This document shows positions 16,153 to 27,385 of a stretch of 27,385 nucleotides of DNA, one piece after another; the first letter of the stretch is position 1, and each line of letters starts with the position of its first letter. The notes under the pieces were generated by a model. The model saw only the letters and a list, made by a program, of their open reading frames with translations, had not been told where the DNA came from and ran no database searches. The DNA lies in the IMG/VR virus record IMGVR_UViG_3300005581_000101, positions 1 through 27,385 of that record. One strand, 5' to 3'. The DNA is from a virus. Position numbers and translations under genes: made by a program.

Positions 16153-17043
16153 TTAAAAGAACCCACAACCACCTGTATTTACTTCGTAGCGACCGTCACG
16201 AGAATTCTCTGTGTAACCATGTGAGCACTGATAAAGATTCCACAAAGCATAAGCACTACCAGAACAACCATTTCCGTGCAGGTTGTTACTAGGAGTGTAA
16301 CCACCATAATTATACAATGCGTACCAGTCAACTCCATCTCCCAAGAAGTTATACAAAACACTACTACTAAATGGGTAAATTGGAATCTGTTGTACCCAAC
16401 CACTATTACAAGTACCTGACCAAGATGTAGCACTATCAGAAGCAGTACAACCTGTTCCAGCCTTTGGTTCGTAATGGGTATAACTTCCTGGCTCTCTGCC
16501 ACATGCCCCACATGCCCGTTCAACATTCACAGTAGAAGTAGTAAAGCAGTCAGCATCTCCAGTAGAACAATCTCCTGTGCAAGTACCTGACCATGATGTA
16601 GCACTATTATAAGTAGTACAACCAGAACCAGCATTTGCAGTGTAGGTGTAATACGTACCAGATTCGGAACCACTACAACCACAACCTCTGGAAGTTGTTT
16701 GTATTGCAGATTGTGTAAAGCAACCGCTGTTACAATCAGGGCTAGATACCCATGCTGTATACCGTGAATACCCTGCACACCCAGTTTTGCTGTAGTCAGT
16801 ACGAACACGGGTTTCACGGTTATTACACGTGTTTTGATATTCAGTTACACCAGCAGCAGCAGTCCAATCCCGACCACCAGCAGCATCATGTTGGCGACAA
16901 TCAGTCCACACTTGTTGCCAAACACCACTTGTTTTAACATGAGCAGATTTTCCATATTGGAAACCGCCACTGTTGCCATAAACAACATCTGCGTCATACC
17001 ACTGGCTTCCTGAGCCTTTGTTGGCTTTACCCTTGAAGGCCAC
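16153..17043 (-). CDS. Cysteine-rich repeat protein, putative virion surface appendage
   Basis: 296 residues with 18 cysteines, far more than any other gene here. It starts at a GTG (17043-17041), four bases after the TGA of the fiber-like gene; no in-frame ATG is close. Residues 1-48 (FQYGKSAHVKTSGVWQQVWTD) resemble the short beta motif with a Val-Lys-x-Ser-Gly-x-Trp ending seen in phage particle proteins. Residues 104-158 and 159-213 are two tandem copies of a Cys-rich unit sharing SATSWSGTC, and a degenerate earlier copy may cover 49-103. The C-terminal 80 residues are Tyr/Gly/Asn-rich. The even cysteine number suggests disulfides or metal sites, which would be formed outside the host cell. 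I do not recognise a named family. Placement right after the fiber-like gene suggests a receptor-binding or decoration role. Confidence 0.72.
   Translation of the reverse strand: MAFKGKANKGSGSQWYDADVVYGNSGGFQYGKSAHVKTSGVWQQVWTDCRQHDAAGGRDWTAAAGVTEYQNTCNNRETRVRTDYSKTGCAGYSRYTAWVSSPDCNSGCFTQSAIQTTSRGCGCSGSESGTYYTYTANAGSGCTTYNSATSWSGTCTGDCSTGDADCFTTSTVNVERACGACGREPGSYTHYEPKAGTGCTASDSATSWSGTCNSGWVQQIPIYPFSSSVLYNFLGDGVDWYALYNYGGYTPSNNLHGNGCSGSAYALWNLYQCSHGYTENSRDGRYEVNTGGCGFF
16405..16734 (-). repeat. Two tandem intragenic repeats in the Cys-rich gene
   Basis: Two units of about 165 bases (16570-16734 and 16405-16569) encode the paired Cys-rich protein repeats. DNA identity is highest around 16414-16452 and 16585-16623, where about 39 bases match with only a few changes (shared core GATGTAGCACTAT on the plus strand). 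The conservation at DNA level suggests a fairly recent duplication or recombination between units. Confidence 0.75.
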
Positions 17044-18366: not shown

Positions 18367-19455
18367 TTAGGAGATTGCACCACCCTTTGTGTTGATGAGT
18401 ACACGAGACTCTGCGGTAATTACACCGAAGCCCCAGATTGCGTACCATGACAAACCATGCTCACGACCGAAGTCAATGACACCACCGTCACGCAGTTCAA
18501 CTGGCAATGCGATTGCCTGTCCAAATGCGTTGTCACCAATCATGATGGCTGAGTATGAAGTGTTGGTTGGGTCTGTAGCAAGACCAGCAGCACCACTCAA
18601 GTCAACAACATCAGTTCCAGCGGTTTGACCCTTAAGAACTTGCGTGGTTTCAATGAATACTACGTCATACAGACGACCAATTTCACCAAGCATGAAGTTA
18701 CCTGGAGCGGCATACTTTGTTACTTCAATGAATTCAGGCCAGTCACGAAGCGCACGGCTCTGTGAAGGGTGTACGAAACATACGTAGGTATCGCCAAGGC
18801 GAGGAATGTTCTGTCCAGCGAGTACTTCAACTGCATCCTTGATGGCAGCAGGTGAGAGCCAACCTGGGTTAGAAGCAGTACCAAGAGTACCAGCCTCGTA
18901 TGGTGCAATACCACCACGAGCGCTAGGAGGGGTACGACCGAAGACTACTGAAGGAGCAACGGCTGCGCCGCCACCGAATGGTGTTCCTGGTGCGTACAAT
19001 GTGTTACGAGCCTGGATGTCCATGGACTGAGCCATGTGACGACCAAGAAGTCGTGAAGACGATGCCATAACGTCATCAAATGATGCGTTAAGAAGGAGTT
19101 CAGTAACTGCAACAGCCTGTCCTTGTTCCTTAACGGTGATTTGAATCTGGCTTGCGGAAAGAGCAACTGGCTCCATACGAACGCCTTCAGTAAGTTGAGC
19201 ACCAGTGGCTTCGCTGACTGAGAGGTTGTTGTAACGCATAAAGTTGATTGTCAAACCAGGCATAACTCCGAGTTCCGTCTTCTTGACGGCAAACTGTTCA
19301 AAGCGTAGAACTGGCATTGCTTGGAACAAGATTTCCTTGGACCAAATTTGCTGAATTGCTGGAGAAAGTGTTGAATCACTTGAGTAGCCTGTGGTTGTAA
19401 TAGAACCAAGACCTGCTCCTGTAATTGCGCCACCTTGTGGGGCTGGAAGGGCCAT
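18367..19455 (-). CDS. Major capsid protein, N4-gp56 family (HK97 fold)
   Basis: 362 residues. Residues about 30-75 (SPAIQQIWSKEILFQAMPVL, then RFEQFAVKKTELGVMPGLTI and NFMRYNNL) match the N4-gp56 family of HK97-fold capsid proteins. The LTEGVRMEP and VTVKEQGQA-type strand that follow, and DTYVCFVHPSQSRALRDWPE with the later LPVELRDGG block, fit the peripheral and axial domains. The protein forms the icosahedral shell. The start has a strong GGAGGAT six bases upstream, the best ribosome binding site in the window, as expected for the most abundant virion protein. It follows the scaffold gene. No long N-terminal delta domain is obvious, so scaffolding is probably supplied by the separate upstream gene. 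Confidence 0.95.
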   Translation of the reverse strand: MALPAPQGGAITGAGLGSITTTGYSSDSTLSPAIQQIWSKEILFQAMPVLRFEQFAVKKTELGVMPGLTINFMRYNNLSVSEATGAQLTEGVRMEPVALSASQIQITVKEQGQAVAVTELLLNASFDDVMASSSRLLGRHMAQSMDIQARNTLYAPGTPFGGGAAVAPSVVFGRTPPSARGGIAPYEAGTLGTASNPGWLSPAAIKDAVEVLAGQNIPRLGDTYVCFVHPSQSRALRDWPEFIEVTKYAAPGNFMLGEIGRLYDVVFIETTQVLKGQTAGTDVVDLSGAAGLATDPTNTSYSAIMIGDNAFGQAIALPVELRDGGVIDFGREHGLSWYAIWGFGVITAESRVLINTKGGAIS

Positions 19456-19490: not shown

Positions 19491-20294
19491 TTAAAACCTG
19501 CCCCGTGAGGGGCGGGCGTTGAGGAGCCTGTCTCGCATCTTCATGTACTGGTCCATCGGCATGTTGCGGATATCCTCCGCTGTCAATGTTTGGTATTCCG
19601 TCTGAGTTTCCATTGGCCCAACAGGGGGAGCCGTTACGGGCGCACCCCGCAGGCGACCTTGCTGTTGCGCAGTCGCTTGCTGGATTGACTCAATAATAGC
19701 ATTACTTCTCTCAGTAAGCACAGCAATTGAGTTTTCTATCTCTTCTTCGGTATTACCAAAGACAAGGTCTTGTAGTTCAGGGATAATGCTGTCAGCAGCA
19801 TCTTGAACACGACTGTTGCGATAAGCCGTTAATTGCTGGATACGGCGCTCTTTATCAAGGAGTGCTTCCTGTGCGGCACGCTGTGTTTCAATAGCATCAA
19901 TGCGTGCTTTGTAGTCTTTTTCTACACTTTCAAAACGCTGAGTCCATTCATCTTCCTTTTTAAGAAGAAGTTCTTTAGCGCTGAGTTCATTAAGTTCACG
20001 CTGTTTAATAATCTCGTGTTCTTGCTTTGAACGCTCATCCGCTTCTTTTTTGATTGCTTCACGCTCTGCGCTAATGATAGCCATTTGCTCTTCCATGCTT
20101 TTTACACGGATATCAGCCTCTTCAAGACGCTTATACATCTTGTCTTTTTCCTGTTTACGGATGTTCTCTACTTCATCCTCAGAAAAGACTTTAGAGTTAC
20201 TTTTCTTCATTGCGTCTTCAACGAACTGTTCCACTTGTGGAGCATCCGCAGGGACTGAGATAATGTCCCCTTCGGGACCTGGGTTTCTTGCCAT
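19491..20294 (-). CDS. Capsid scaffolding protein
   Basis: 267 residues, rich in Glu, Lys, Gln and Arg. Residues about 40-165 are a continuous charged helix predicted by eye to be a coiled coil (DKMYKRLEEADIRVKSMEEQ and further heptads). The region 200-235 is Gln/Pro-rich and flexible. The C-terminal end, TAEDIRNMPMDQYMKMRDRL then basic ARPSRGRF, could be the capsid-binding helix, as in other phage scaffolds. The gene lies between portal and major capsid, the standard place. There is no protease motif, so it is not a fused protease-scaffold. The ATG at 20294 has a modest AGG site. Confidence 0.88.
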   Translation of the reverse strand: MARNPGPEGDIISVPADAPQVEQFVEDAMKKSNSKVFSEDEVENIRKQEKDKMYKRLEEADIRVKSMEEQMAIISAEREAIKKEADERSKQEHEIIKQRELNELSAKELLLKKEDEWTQRFESVEKDYKARIDAIETQRAAQEALLDKERRIQQLTAYRNSRVQDAADSIIPELQDLVFGNTEEEIENSIAVLTERSNAIIESIQQATAQQQGRLRGAPVTAPPVGPMETQTEYQTLTAEDIRNMPMDQYMKMRDRLLNARPSRGRF

Positions 20295-20347: not shown

Positions 20348-22039
20348 TTAGTTATCTTCGTCAGGGTTACGGCGTTGTGCAAAACGAGCGCCATAAGCCC
20401 TGGATACTATCTTATTTACAATTTCCTCTTCCATCGGCATTGCTGCACCAAGTCCAGGCATCGGAGAAGCAGGGCTTCCCGATGTGCTTACATTACCACC
20501 TTCTGAAGGTGCAGGCTGGGCACCTCCGTCAGGCTGTGTAACCATTCCAGTAGCAAGCATGATGGCTTGCTGAATCTGCGCACGCATCATGTCCAAGGCA
20601 CCTTGGTCAATAGCGTCATCTTGCAGTTCTTCAAAAATTTCAGATAACTTCTCACGTGGGAATTCTTCACCAAGGATGCGCAAAGCGCCTTCTTTTGATT
20701 CAAGCCCAAGTTGCATCTTGGCTTGCACTTCATTCAACTTGATAAGAACATCAATAGGAAGTGGTTCAGGCCAGTGAATAGTTGTGCGGTAAGTAAGCGG
20801 GTCAGCAGGGTCTAACTGTGGAAGTTGGTCACGCTCTGGTTCTGAAGCCTTACTTGGGTCGTATGTCAACATCCAAGGTTCAAAGATTGCAGCAGTACGA
20901 ATAATAATTTCGTTAACACGCTCAAGACCCTTAGTAAAGTGAATCTTTTTCATGCTGTAGCGGTTCATCATTGGCTGATACTGAATAGCCAGAGCCACAC
21001 CAGAAGTGTTAGAAATAGGTTGCATTTGACCAAGAGCAGTTTCAGGAACTCCTGTAATTTCATGCATTGTACGCTTAATGAAATTGACATATTCCAAAGC
21101 ACCTGACATCTCCCCACGAGATTCAAGGTTAAAGACGTTGGCATCCTTAGGAAGACCAGCCCAAACCTTCTTAGGTCCACGCTCCAACTGGGAAGCCTTG
21201 GCACCAGTAATGATTGTTACAGGAGCAGCATGGTAGTTAATGATATCTGAAACTTCAGTCATCTTTTCATTAAGTTCACGGTTAAGTGGGATGATGTCCC
21301 AGATGTCTGACTGACCCCAAGGAGAAGAAGAAATTGTTACGTTAGGAATGTGTACAACAGGTATTTGACCTAGAGCATTAGGGTATTGGTCAATTAGTTC
21401 ATCATTAACAAACTGCTGGACCATATCGTCAGACAAGATTTCAACAAAAGTGTAAACCTGACGAGTACCTTCAGGAGATGTTCCCCAGAAACGGTATTTA
21501 AGTTTGAAGCGAATTAAGCGGTCACGGTCATGTGGGTGATACTCAGGAAAACAATGTGCTGGGTTAAGGGGAATAATACGAATACGCCCCTCATGCTGCA
21601 AGCCCACAGAATCCACATAAGGCTCTTCGTAGGCAATCTTTACGAAGCAATCGCCTGTTACTGACGCTAGTTGTCCCATTTCCCAAAGTACAAAATGTTT
21701 GTTGTTATCGCCATCCCACACTCTATGAAGGAGTGGTGGAATTACAGCAGCATTTTGTTCAGGAACATGAAATTGAATACCTTTACCAAAACAAAAGTTG
21801 GTGATGTAGTCCGACATTGTACGGACGTAGTTCATATAGAACTGTGATTCGCCCATCTCACGGCGGTAAGACCAGTGGTGACCAAGGTACCAAGCCCATG
21901 CGGCTGAGTAGCGGTTTAGGCGTGGTCCATGGACCTCAAACTCTTCGTCAGCAAGTTCTACTAGCCCTAACGGGCTAATGGCAACTGTTAGGTCGCCTGA
22001 TGCTGCTCTATACGATGGTGACCAGAAGTCAACTGCCAT
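20348..22039 (-). CDS. Portal protein
   Basis: 563 residues. The N-terminal half has the usual portal layout: RREMGESQFYMNYVRTMSDY, a GDCFVKIAYEE strand, and YPNALGQIPVVHIPN. The middle holds a long helical region with SQLERGPKKVWAGLPKDANV and, near residue 330, MHEITGVPETALGQ, which is a typical portal stem/wing motif. C-terminal residues about 480-530 are Gly/Pro/Ser-rich, followed by a short helical and basic end. Portal dodecamers form the DNA channel at one capsid vertex and bind the terminase. Size and place upstream of scaffold and capsid fit the family. Confidence 0.92.
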   Translation of the reverse strand: MAVDFWSPSYRAASGDLTVAISPLGLVELADEEFEVHGPRLNRYSAAWAWYLGHHWSYRREMGESQFYMNYVRTMSDYITNFCFGKGIQFHVPEQNAAVIPPLLHRVWDGDNNKHFVLWEMGQLASVTGDCFVKIAYEEPYVDSVGLQHEGRIRIIPLNPAHCFPEYHPHDRDRLIRFKLKYRFWGTSPEGTRQVYTFVEILSDDMVQQFVNDELIDQYPNALGQIPVVHIPNVTISSSPWGQSDIWDIIPLNRELNEKMTEVSDIINYHAAPVTIITGAKASQLERGPKKVWAGLPKDANVFNLESRGEMSGALEYVNFIKRTMHEITGVPETALGQMQPISNTSGVALAIQYQPMMNRYSMKKIHFTKGLERVNEIIIRTAAIFEPWMLTYDPSKASEPERDQLPQLDPADPLTYRTTIHWPEPLPIDVLIKLNEVQAKMQLGLESKEGALRILGEEFPREKLSEIFEELQDDAIDQGALDMMRAQIQQAIMLATGMVTQPDGGAQPAPSEGGNVSTSGSPASPMPGLGAAMPMEEEIVNKIVSRAYGARFAQRRNPDEDN

Positions 22040-22060: not shown

Positions 22061-22369
22061 TTACTGAGCAGTTTTCTTAGCGGCTGCCTTTTTGGCTGGA
22101 GCCTTCTTAGCGGCTTCTTTTTTTTCTTCAACAGCAACAGTAACTTCTTTTACAAGTTCAGGAAGTTCCTGTGATGCCTTGGTAAGGAAGTTAGCAGTGC
22201 CCTTGTCACCAACGAGGGTGCTTGCATATGCAAGACCTGTAATAACAAGTGGCATGATTGCGGCTTGTGCGCCTGGGTCAATGTTTGCCTTAGCAAGGAA
22301 ATAAGAAAGTGCGCCAACAACTGCACCCTTTAGCGTTTGGTCTGCGACCTGTTGATTCTTCGTAGCCAT
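22061..22369 (-). CDS. Small membrane protein with Lys/Ala-rich tail, possible holin
   Basis: 102 residues from the ATG at 22369-22367, chosen because AAGGAG lies five bases upstream; a longer open frame exists but overlaps the protease gene. Two hydrophobic stretches, residues 14-26 and 36-53 (IMPLVITGLAYASTLVG), surround a short loop. The last 20 residues are almost only Lys, Ala and Pro (KKAPAKKAAAKKTAQ). Two hydrophobic segments and a strongly positive C-terminus are the usual plan of class II holins, but the segments are only moderately hydrophobic and no lysin gene is nearby. The histone-H1-like tail could instead bind DNA or the membrane surface. The role is undecided. Confidence 0.68.
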   Translation of the reverse strand: MATKNQQVADQTLKGAVVGALSYFLAKANIDPGAQAAIMPLVITGLAYASTLVGDKGTANFLTKASQELPELVKEVTVAVEEKKEAAKKAPAKKAAAKKTAQ

Positions 22370-22418: not shown

Positions 22419-23024
22419 TTACTGCTCTTGAATCTGTGCATAGAACGGAGGACCTGTATGAGGGTCGTAATGAGCAGCAACGGTAAGGGCCTTCAAGGCA
22501 AGACTTTTCGCTTGGGTAGCAGTCAACTTCTTCTTGGGAAAAAGAGCCTTAAGAGCACCCAGTGCGTATGGTCCCCCCGTCCCCAACCCATAGAGACCAT
22601 TGTTGTCCGAAGCCCACGAGTAATCGCTGTCAATGACATAGATGACACCGTGGATAGCAACAAGGATTGATGAACCTTGTTCTGCAATGTGGTCTGATTG
22701 GTCATTAGTAGGGGCAGAATAACCTTGTGAATCAAAGCATTCTCGTAAATCAGGAATAAACTTTGAAGTAAAAAACTTGTCTAAACGCACACCAAGAAGA
22801 GTTGCTGGGGGTGCTGGAGGGGTAAAGACATGGTGCAAAAGATTAATTGCACGCATGTCCCCAGCCGCTCCAATAATGTATTTGCCGTTTTTGGCAACTT
22901 TGCCAGAACCAGGGCGCACTGTAGATATCCGTGATACAAAACCATTTGAGTCAGTATCCGAAATGCGTGAATCGTTAGCGATTATGGCGTAGCCATCACC
23001 TTGTATTCCGACAATAGTTGTCAT
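22419..23024 (-). CDS. HslV/proteasome-like Ntn-hydrolase protease
   Basis: 201 residues. The start MTTIVGIQGDGYAIIANDSR is that of HslV and 20S proteasome beta subunits. Removing Met exposes Thr at position 1, the nucleophile, and Asp is found at mature position 17 as in those enzymes. K41 in mature numbering (in SGKVAKNGKYIIGAAGD) is the best candidate for the catalytic Lys, usually 33; the spacing implies an insert of about eight residues. GLGTGGPYALGALKAL near residue 146 matches the HslV Gly-x-Gly-Gly-Pro-Tyr-Ala block. No HslU-type ATPase is in this window. It overlaps the metallophosphoesterase as ATGA and lies upstream of portal, scaffold and capsid, so it may mature the capsid, though regulated proteolysis of host or phage proteins is equally possible. 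Confidence 0.82.
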   Translation of the reverse strand: MTTIVGIQGDGYAIIANDSRISDTDSNGFVSRISTVRPGSGKVAKNGKYIIGAAGDMRAINLLHHVFTPPAPPATLLGVRLDKFFTSKFIPDLRECFDSQGYSAPTNDQSDHIAEQGSSILVAIHGVIYVIDSDYSWASDNNGLYGLGTGGPYALGALKALFPKKKLTATQAKSLALKALTVAAHYDPHTGPPFYAQIQEQ

Positions 23025-23992
23025 TCTCCGAACACTTTTCCTTTATAGAACATTGTTCCATCGTGGATTGGGAGCATTTCAGGATGAAACGGACCGTCAC
23101 CTTCCTTGTAGTGGATAATTCCTAAGCCTTGTTGCCAGTCTTCCACGATTGTAAGTGGACGACCATCAAGGTCAATACCACCTTTAGTTGAAGGTACTTC
23201 GCCTGATACACGAGCAAGGCAACCAAATGAAATAGCAGCAACTGTTTTTGCTCCATCCCAATCTTGGCGTGTGCGCTCTGCCCATTCACGGCGATGGATA
23301 TGTCCATACACAACAGAAACTTTCTCTGTACTTAAGTACTTGTGAGCAGTAGAACCACCTGAAGCAACTTTGTGACCATGAATAACTTTAATGCGGTTGT
23401 TTAACCAAAGTTGGCTTGCAGGGTATCCAGCAAGGTACTCAACACCAAAGTCGTCCAAACGGCACAGGAAGGGCACAGAAAGCACAGGAAAACTATCTGG
23501 TCTGTTACCTTGCTTTAATCCAAAAGATGCTTTTGCATTGTCTAAGATTGAGTTTGTAAGGCGTGCCTCGTGGTTACCTTCAATCCAAACAATACGAGCA
23601 TACGGAGCCACATCTCGTAGTTGTGCACAAAGAGTAGTCATGTAGTCAATAGTTGCTTGTGTTGTCAACGCATACGCAGGGCTTAGACGGTACTTACCAA
23701 ATTCTGGAAAGTCTGTGTTGTCACCATTTAATGCAATGATGTCAGGCTTTTCTGCCTTAACAACTGCTACTGCATAAGAGATAGCAAGTGGGTCATGAGT
23801 AGGTGTGAGATTACCATCTCGTCCTCTAAAGAACCCTGCTTGAATGTCAGGTAATACAACACATTTCTTCCAATCAGAAAGTGTGGACTTTACAGTAACC
23901 TTTGGAAGTTTGATTGCAGGACCTTGACGTACTGGGTCCCATGATGGACCATACTGTGGAGTAAACTGTTCAGTTAGTTGTCCCACATCCAC
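23021..23992 (-). CDS. Calcineurin-like metallophosphoesterase
   Basis: About 323 residues. The metal-binding motifs appear in the right order: LPDIQ (D49-x-Q51, where most relatives have D-x-H), NGDN (90-92), GNHE (139-142), HGH (205-207) and GHIHR (230-234). These coordinate a two-metal centre that hydrolyses phosphomonoesters or diesters. The first 40 residues are a non-conserved extension. The start is GTG at 23992, or GTG at 23986, which is better spaced from GGAAG; both overlap the upstream gene. The substrate cannot be read from sequence: nucleic-acid ends, nucleotides and phosphoproteins are all possible. It is followed by the Ntn hydrolase with an ATGA overlap, so the two are probably made together. 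Confidence 0.88.
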   Translation of the reverse strand: MDVGQLTEQFTPQYGPSWDPVRQGPAIKLPKVTVKSTLSDWKKCVVLPDIQAGFFRGRDGNLTPTHDPLAISYAVAVVKAEKPDIIALNGDNTDFPEFGKYRLSPAYALTTQATIDYMTTLCAQLRDVAPYARIVWIEGNHEARLTNSILDNAKASFGLKQGNRPDSFPVLSVPFLCRLDDFGVEYLAGYPASQLWLNNRIKVIHGHKVASGGSTAHKYLSTEKVSVVYGHIHRREWAERTRQDWDGAKTVAAISFGCLARVSGEVPSTKGGIDLDGRPLTIVEDWQQGLGIIHYKEGDGPFHPEMLPIHDGTMFYKGKVFGE

Positions 23993-26674: not shown

Positions 26675-27385
26675 TCAGCGGAAAAAAGGATTATCTGCCA
26701 CCAAAATGGTCGGCATAGTATCCTGTGTACTCATTTGACAAGCAATAGCCAAACTATCGGGGTAGTCGTCAAACGCACCTTTTTCGTCAGGAGCAGCCGC
26801 AAGCAAATAAGGTCCCCGATAAATCTTTTCAAGGTCAGACATTTGTTGATTAAACCGCTTCCAGTTTCGTATTCTGCGGGCTTTAGAATGTCCAGGAATT
26901 ACAAGTTGGTCACGCTGAATAAGTTCTGTTAGGTGCACCCAACGTTCATTTTGATTCTTGGCATCTGAGGTAACTGCAAGAACCTCAATATCAGGAAGAA
27001 GAAGTTGTAGACGCTCTGCGACAGCGCCACCGACACCTTGTGAGTCCACACCAATGCGCATACAGTCATAATTGCGCAGGAAGTCAATAATCTGGAAATA
27101 TTGAGATTCCCATTCCTCGTTGTTAATCTCAAGCCAGTTGAGAATACGGTGCTCATAGAACCCAAATGGGTCTGGATGGTCCCAGTCAACCCAAACGACT
27201 GTTACAACCGTGGAGTCATTTGAACGGGCTACGTCAATGCCAACCACAACGGGTGTACGCCACCATTGTTTCACAACATTCATGGAGGCATCGTACATAC
27301 GGTCTAGGCGCTCTTCAGTAACAAACATACCTTTTTCAAGAATCCAACGGTTGCAATAAGACATCTGGAATTCGTCTGAGTCTTC
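26675..27385 (-). CDS. terL: Terminase large subunit, C-terminal nuclease part (partial)
   Basis: 236 residues are visible; the frame is open through the right edge (EDSDEFQMSYCNRW), so the ATPase domain lies beyond the window and the ATG at 27364 is internal. The visible part is the RNase H-like nuclease: motif with the first Asp in VVVGIDVARSND, the second in IGVDSQGVGG, and the last acidic pair in GAFDDYPDSLAIA. The DEFQMSYCN sequence before it is a typical link from the ATPase to the nuclease domain. This enzyme cuts concatemeric DNA and drives it through the portal. The stop at 26675 is followed by the unrecognised 133-residue gene. No small terminase subunit is identified in the window. 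Confidence 0.94.
   Translation of the reverse strand, partial: EDSDEFQMSYCNRWILEKGMFVTEERLDRMYDASMNVVKQWWRTPVVVGIDVARSNDSTVVTVVWVDWDHPDPFGFYEHRILNWLEINNEEWESQYFQIIDFLRNYDCMRIGVDSQGVGGAVAERLQLLLPDIEVLAVTSDAKNQNERWVHLTELIQRDQLVIPGHSKARRIRNWKRFNQQMSDLEKIYRGPYLLAAAPDEKGAFDDYPDSLAIACQMSTQDTMPTILVADNPFFR

Follow-up and report, generated by a model that had tools for sequence, protein, structure and literature searches.

A proteasome-type peptidase gene in a portal-side slot of freshwater actinophages, probably an exchangeable extra enzyme rather than a head-maturation protease

Proteasome homologs are known from phages but are functionally blank; Fuchs, Alva and Lupas (2021), who described the phage groups PPH and AAH, found no functional context for them (PMC8665760). 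The locus analyzed here, within a viral DNA of 27,385 nucleotides (IMG/VR record IMGVR_UViG_3300005581_000101; hereafter the window), places such a homolog beside the head genes. A sequence-only reading had proposed that this Ntn hydrolase may serve as the capsid maturation protease or, alternatively, may act on host proteins without a phage-encoded ATPase. Which role does the locus favor? The relevant features, in their order along the minus strand, are as follows.

26675..27385, minus strand: terminase large subunit (TerL), C-terminal part, cut by the window end (PF17289)
23021..23992, minus strand: metallophosphoesterase (MPE) gene (PF00149, phrog_20266); its stop overlaps the Ntn start (ATGA)
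22419..23024, minus strand: Ntn hydrolase gene (proteasome/HslV-like), 201 aa (PF00227, phrog_1040, AlphaFold/Foldseek)
23019..23021, minus strand: Thr1 codon, putative nucleophile, invariant in 34 homologs (Thr2 counted from Met)
22971..22973, minus strand: Asp17 codon, invariant column
22899..22901, minus strand: Lys41 codon (Lys33 equivalent), invariant column (K42 from Met)
22563..22583, minus strand: GTGGPYA block, residues 148-154 from Met; G148, G150 and A154 invariant
22061..22369, minus strand: small Lys/Ala-rich, partly hydrophobic ORF between Ntn and portal, no confident family match
20348..22039, minus strand: portal, SPP1 gp6-like (PF05133, E=2e-28)
19491..20294, minus strand: scaffold-like ORF, from position and weak phrog_1793; homologs are annotated as scaffolding in Streptomyces phages pSt2308 and GiJojo
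18367..19455, minus strand: major capsid protein, N4-gp56 family (TIGR04387, E=6e-38; phrog_1357)

The minus strand thus reads TerL fragment, MPE, Ntn, small Lys/Ala-rich ORF, portal, scaffold-like ORF and capsid, with the Ntn gene ahead of the head genes as first read and one small ORF (22061-22369) intervening. The order TerL–MPE–Ntn–portal–scaffold–capsid is kept in 60-odd IMG/VR loci. The lineage is akin to Streptomyces phages BRock, pSt2308 and GiJojo (portal 54%, capsid 60%), which have the same gene order and gave no Ntn match. The virus is a freshwater phage. Each of the 11 larger genomes of the lineage that were searched carries WhiB, an actinophage marker (PMC10202952), which makes an actinobacterium the most likely host. 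Two other minus-strand genes of the window deserve mention. Between TerL and MPE lies a GP88-family protein (PF17338; 24538-25746), whose counterparts in relatives reach no more than 25-51% identity or go undetected; the flanking genes are 80% or more identical. Between the capsid and tail genes, positions 16153-17043 encode a 296-aa protein rich in Cys, Gly and Ser; it contains repeated CTGDCS-like blocks and matches no family.

The Ntn ORF starts at an ATG and its product begins M-Thr-Thr-Ile, without a propeptide. A profile search placed it above the curated cut-off of PF00227 (30.2 versus 22.4 bits; E=4e-7), and phrog_1040, "peptidase HslV family", also matches (E=3.4e-18). With 251 related stretches in IMG/VR and a dN/dS of 0.07 against a 90%-identical relative, these scores make the family match more than chance; the purifying selection itself says only that the protein matters. 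Scans of genome contigs yielded no actinobacterial homolog, one alignment giving a single gammaproteobacterial MAG contig, and a viral scan with the homolog from Microbacterium phage Pumpernickel as query returned no match.

The catalytic residues were followed through two alignments, one of IMG/VR homologs (34 rows) and one extending to distant phages (21 rows). Thr1, Asp17 and a catalytic-type Lys are invariant in both, and Tenacibaculum pT24 carries Ser at the nucleophile position instead of Thr1. The oxyanion-region Gly (Gly47 equivalent) is present in a GAAGD segment, in which G52 is invariant across the 21 rows and G55 across the 34. An ATG immediately precedes Thr1 in all close homologs checked, so no propeptide would be needed. 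The leading Thr, Asp17 and the Gly-x-Gly-Gly-Pro-Tyr-Ala block all lie where the sequence-only reading had placed them. It had also taken a displaced Lys as the possible mark of a divergent subfamily. The displacement is real, the window Lys standing at position 41 from Thr1, 8 residues later than 33; the subfamily does not follow from it, because in D'Alembert, a Psychrobacter phage, and in Pumpernickel the same invariant Lys sits at or next to 33. The shift is thus a clade-specific loop insertion rather than a rearranged active site.

Structure prediction recovered the Ntn fold. The AlphaFold model (pLDDT 87, pTM 0.83) has BPH (5ovs/5ovt) and HslV (1e94) as its best Foldseek matches, at probability 1.00, and 20S beta chains also match. 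The model contains helices at 57-65 and 82-99, followed by a long, low-confidence loop (about residues 100-118) that is only mildly acidic. At this site a pore loop has been described that is short in HslV, which is gated by an unfoldase, and long in BPH, which apparently works without one (PMC8665760). Profiles, predicted fold and invariant catalytic residues together bear out the assignment as a proteasome/HslV-like Ntn hydrolase.

The window protein is another member of the known phage proteasome homologs (Fuchs 2021, PMC8665760). It shares with AAH and PPH an HslV/BPH-like group I character, the lack of a propeptide, residence in tailed phages and a context in which no AAA+ partner was found. 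PPH membership was rejected, since PPH proteins are ~140 aa and lack helix 2 (PMC8665760), whereas the window protein has 201 aa and both helices. No actinobacteria-specific phages encoding AAH were found in that survey (PMC8665760), whereas the window lineage appears to consist of actinophages. BPH is the closest in fold (TM 0.70-0.73 by query length) and resembles the window protein in its long post-helix-2 loop and its apparent independence of an unfoldase; the two are 18-19% identical, and the loop of the window protein is less acidic. HslV shares the Thr1-Asp17-Lys set, the GxGGPYA block and the fold, but no HslU gene was seen travelling with the window Ntn gene when ATPase families were compared across 8 genomes. 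Against NCBIfam cut-offs, equivalog status was rejected both for HslV (27 of 137 and 25.4 of 157.75 bits) and for the bacterial 20S beta subunit PrcB (21.6 of 191.9 bits). The closest named phage protein, the 49%-identical 'ATP-dependent protease subunit' of DSL-LC01 (OQ999401), differs in setting: its gene lies beside WhiB, about 6 kb before TerL, and that phage has its own S78-type match at 66 kb.

Sister phages, gathered by a capsid-based search, bear directly on the capsid-maturation proposal. Many of them keep the order TerL–MPE–portal–scaffold–capsid without an Ntn gene between MPE and portal, and their portal and capsid proteins are mostly 75-86% identical. Whole-record searches with the PF00227 profile and homolog alignment found no Ntn family match in 16 records sharing the head module (18-115 kb; some fragments, some 83-115 kb), and exactly one copy in each of the nine Ntn-bearing records that served as the counterpart. 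Across ~95-kb relatives, no S78/U35 or ClpP-type prohead protease was detected in phages with or without the Ntn gene, which supports the earlier impression that no ClpP- or U35-type enzyme is present. Capsid lengths are similar (359-365 aa with the gene, 358-375 aa without), and no prosegment was seen on the portal, scaffold or capsid proteins, whose lengths do not differ systematically between the two sets and whose conserved ends are alike. Since sisters carry the same head genes and similar head proteins without the Ntn gene and without S78/ClpP proteases, the head module appears independent of it. Capsid maturation as a required role was rejected on this ground.

In the sisters lacking the Ntn gene, the place between MPE and portal is taken by another ORF, ~93-143 aa long and bearing a W(L/D)DA...GW motif. 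Among 111 loci with both flanks, 91 carry Ntn, 19 the small protein, one neither and none both; several of these loci are the same contig counted twice, and a sounder figure comes from the distinct portal sequences, of which there are 70, divided 52 to 18 between Ntn and the small protein. Genome-wide, the small protein occurs in 4/4 lineage genomes without Ntn and in 0/7 with it. On the portal tree the slot label changes three times, at least two of the changes being forced by well-supported branches. The small protein is a predicted five-stranded beta-barrel (pLDDT 75) with a weak match to phrog_25889 (function listed as unknown); it has no Pfam family and no significant fold match in the PDB, and nothing marks it as an enzyme. 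Such exclusive use of the slot may reflect simple replacement or similar roles. Contigs with this small family in the slot include L098, L099, L105, L115, L121, L162 and L171, among others. Separately, an AAA ATPase paired with a large CobT/VWA-like protein occurs in the Ntn-lacking genomes G005, G010 and G014 (e.g., G005:10976-14302) and not in four Ntn-bearing ones. Because the pair is missing from Ntn-lacking G012, it does not track the slot and was rejected as a slot-linked ATPase.

A second lineage also places the gene at the portal. In 39-kb phages around OX376640 and OX376641, the order is TerL–portal–Ntn–...–scaffold-like–capsid, and in 80/81 loci Ntn is the gene immediately following portal. 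These accessions are the cultured 'Ca. Planktophila' phages LanE43AprE7 and F5, whose authors list genes for host-protein degradation without naming the Ntn gene among them (PMC10202952). They are actinophages, as the window virus appears to be, and their Ntn gene, 33-34% identical, comes immediately after the portal gene; they differ in belonging to a smaller-genome lineage (39 kb) akin to Immanuel3, the window lineage being akin to BRock. The portal-adjacent Ntn genes of the two lineages do not group into a single clade. Relatives of the second lineage without the gene include Streptomyces phages such as Immanuel3 and the contigs L317, L330 and the close relative L338 (portal 81%, capsid 90%).

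Elsewhere, close relatives of the window gene are not beside the portal gene. The homolog adjoins ThyX in Pumpernickel, thymidylate synthase and DHFR in Geobacillus E3 and Vibrio 1.101.O, DNA ligases in Tunturi_5, and WhiB in DSL-LC01 and contigs L051, L052, L055, L075 and L175. In these five contigs and in L001, from actinophages unrelated in their head genes, the WhiB-family gene is immediately downstream of the Ntn gene; in L055 and L075 the Ntn gene is itself preceded by a phosphoesterase gene. Pseudomonas prophage AH14a encodes a 'proteasome subunit beta' a few genes ahead of terminase (PMC4936722). An annotated head maturation protease is present in D'Alembert in addition to its Ntn homolog, just as DSL-LC01 has its S78-type match. 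The expectation that a head enzyme would stay within head modules is thus contradicted by the distant homologs and upheld in the two lineages where the gene is steadily portal-adjacent. In L074 (9315-12136 and 5936-6634), a phage contig of 105 kb, the surroundings of the Ntn gene include ThyX and a member of the cytochrome P450 family (PF00067, E=2e-26), the latter unusual for a phage.

We consider it somewhat probable that the Ntn protein is an accessory, self-contained Thr peptidase that needs no phage ATPase and probably degrades host or damaged proteins. Because close relatives encode apparently the same head without it, the gene is probably an exchangeable extra rather than a head protease. 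Simple Met removal would expose the N-terminal Thr; the protein would most likely self-assemble into a ring and, as proposed for BPH, could degrade or trim unfolded proteins during infection without a phage unfoldase, its substrates presumably being host or damaged proteins. Carried in a late-operon slot beside portal, it would probably be co-expressed with late genes while not being needed to make the head. No ATPase family was confined to Ntn-bearing genomes among the 8 compared, which fits unfoldase-independent action and, in the ~95-kb relatives, agrees with the suggestion that no phage-encoded ATPase partners the enzyme; host ATPases (Mpa, ClpC) could serve it. A trans-acting Thr peptidase useful in several genomic settings is the most economical reading. 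Counting against this explanation are the gene's place directly beside portal in two lineages, a hint of some connection with assembly or the virion, the possible service by host ATPases, and the mildly acidic loop, unlike that of BPH. The literature searched held no virion proteomics of a phage Ntn homolog.

Portal adjacency is also an argument for roles tied to the head. That the enzyme cleaves scaffold, portal or capsid protein as the capsid maturation protease would suit its steady position in two lineages and the failure to find an S78 or ClpP-type protease in the lineage; we nevertheless judge it very unlikely, given that the close sisters lack both the Ntn gene and such proteases, that the capsid protein has no prosegment, and that D'Alembert and DSL-LC01 carry a head protease plus an Ntn homolog far from it. 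A separate scaffold gene, moreover, permits maturation without a protease, as in SPP1 and P22, whose heads mature protease-free. A less doubtful but still unlikely alternative is an optional protease tied to the head or to injection, which would be packaged or act on scaffold or on ejected proteins and so improve assembly or takeover. It would be dispensable if the slot's other occupant did an equivalent job, and would account for a slot occupied by one or the other and never both. Simple gene replacement also yields such exclusive use, however; the beta-barrel, lacking a significant structural match, shows no enzymatic sign, and close Ntn relatives elsewhere are not beside portal. Quite improbable, in our estimate, is that a proteasome-type peptidase was recruited in two lineages for the portal or late head complex and became interchangeable in one with a small beta-barrel protein; if true, this would be a previously undescribed kind of proteolytic factor, replaceable and acting in assembly or injection.

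Some members of the superfamily are not general proteases, as connectase, a monomeric ligase, illustrates (PMC8665760). A specific processing enzyme, a connectase-like ligase or a modulator of the host 20S proteasome is thus conceivable for the window protein, but the model shows no connectase-type helical insertion. Many actinobacteria possess Pup-proteasome systems, which would suit a modulator; homologs also occur, though, in phages of hosts lacking them (Geobacillus, Vibrio), and we think a role of this sort rather improbable.

What is new relative to the literature searched is the slot beside portal and its swap with a small protein, together with a second lineage in which the gene adjoins portal and the connection to cultured phages. 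The question of what phage proteasome homologs do is thereby narrowed to a gene that appears dispensable for the head module, occupying a defined portal-side slot in abundant freshwater actinophages and swapped with one small family. Since E7 and F5 are cultured phages with a cultured host and carry portal-adjacent homologs, the function of a viral proteasome homolog becomes directly testable. As a minor observation, L203, of the podo-type lineage, encodes a 1925-aa protein (L203:11473-17250) in which ADP-ribosyltransferase and head maturation protease PHROGs match the same stretch.
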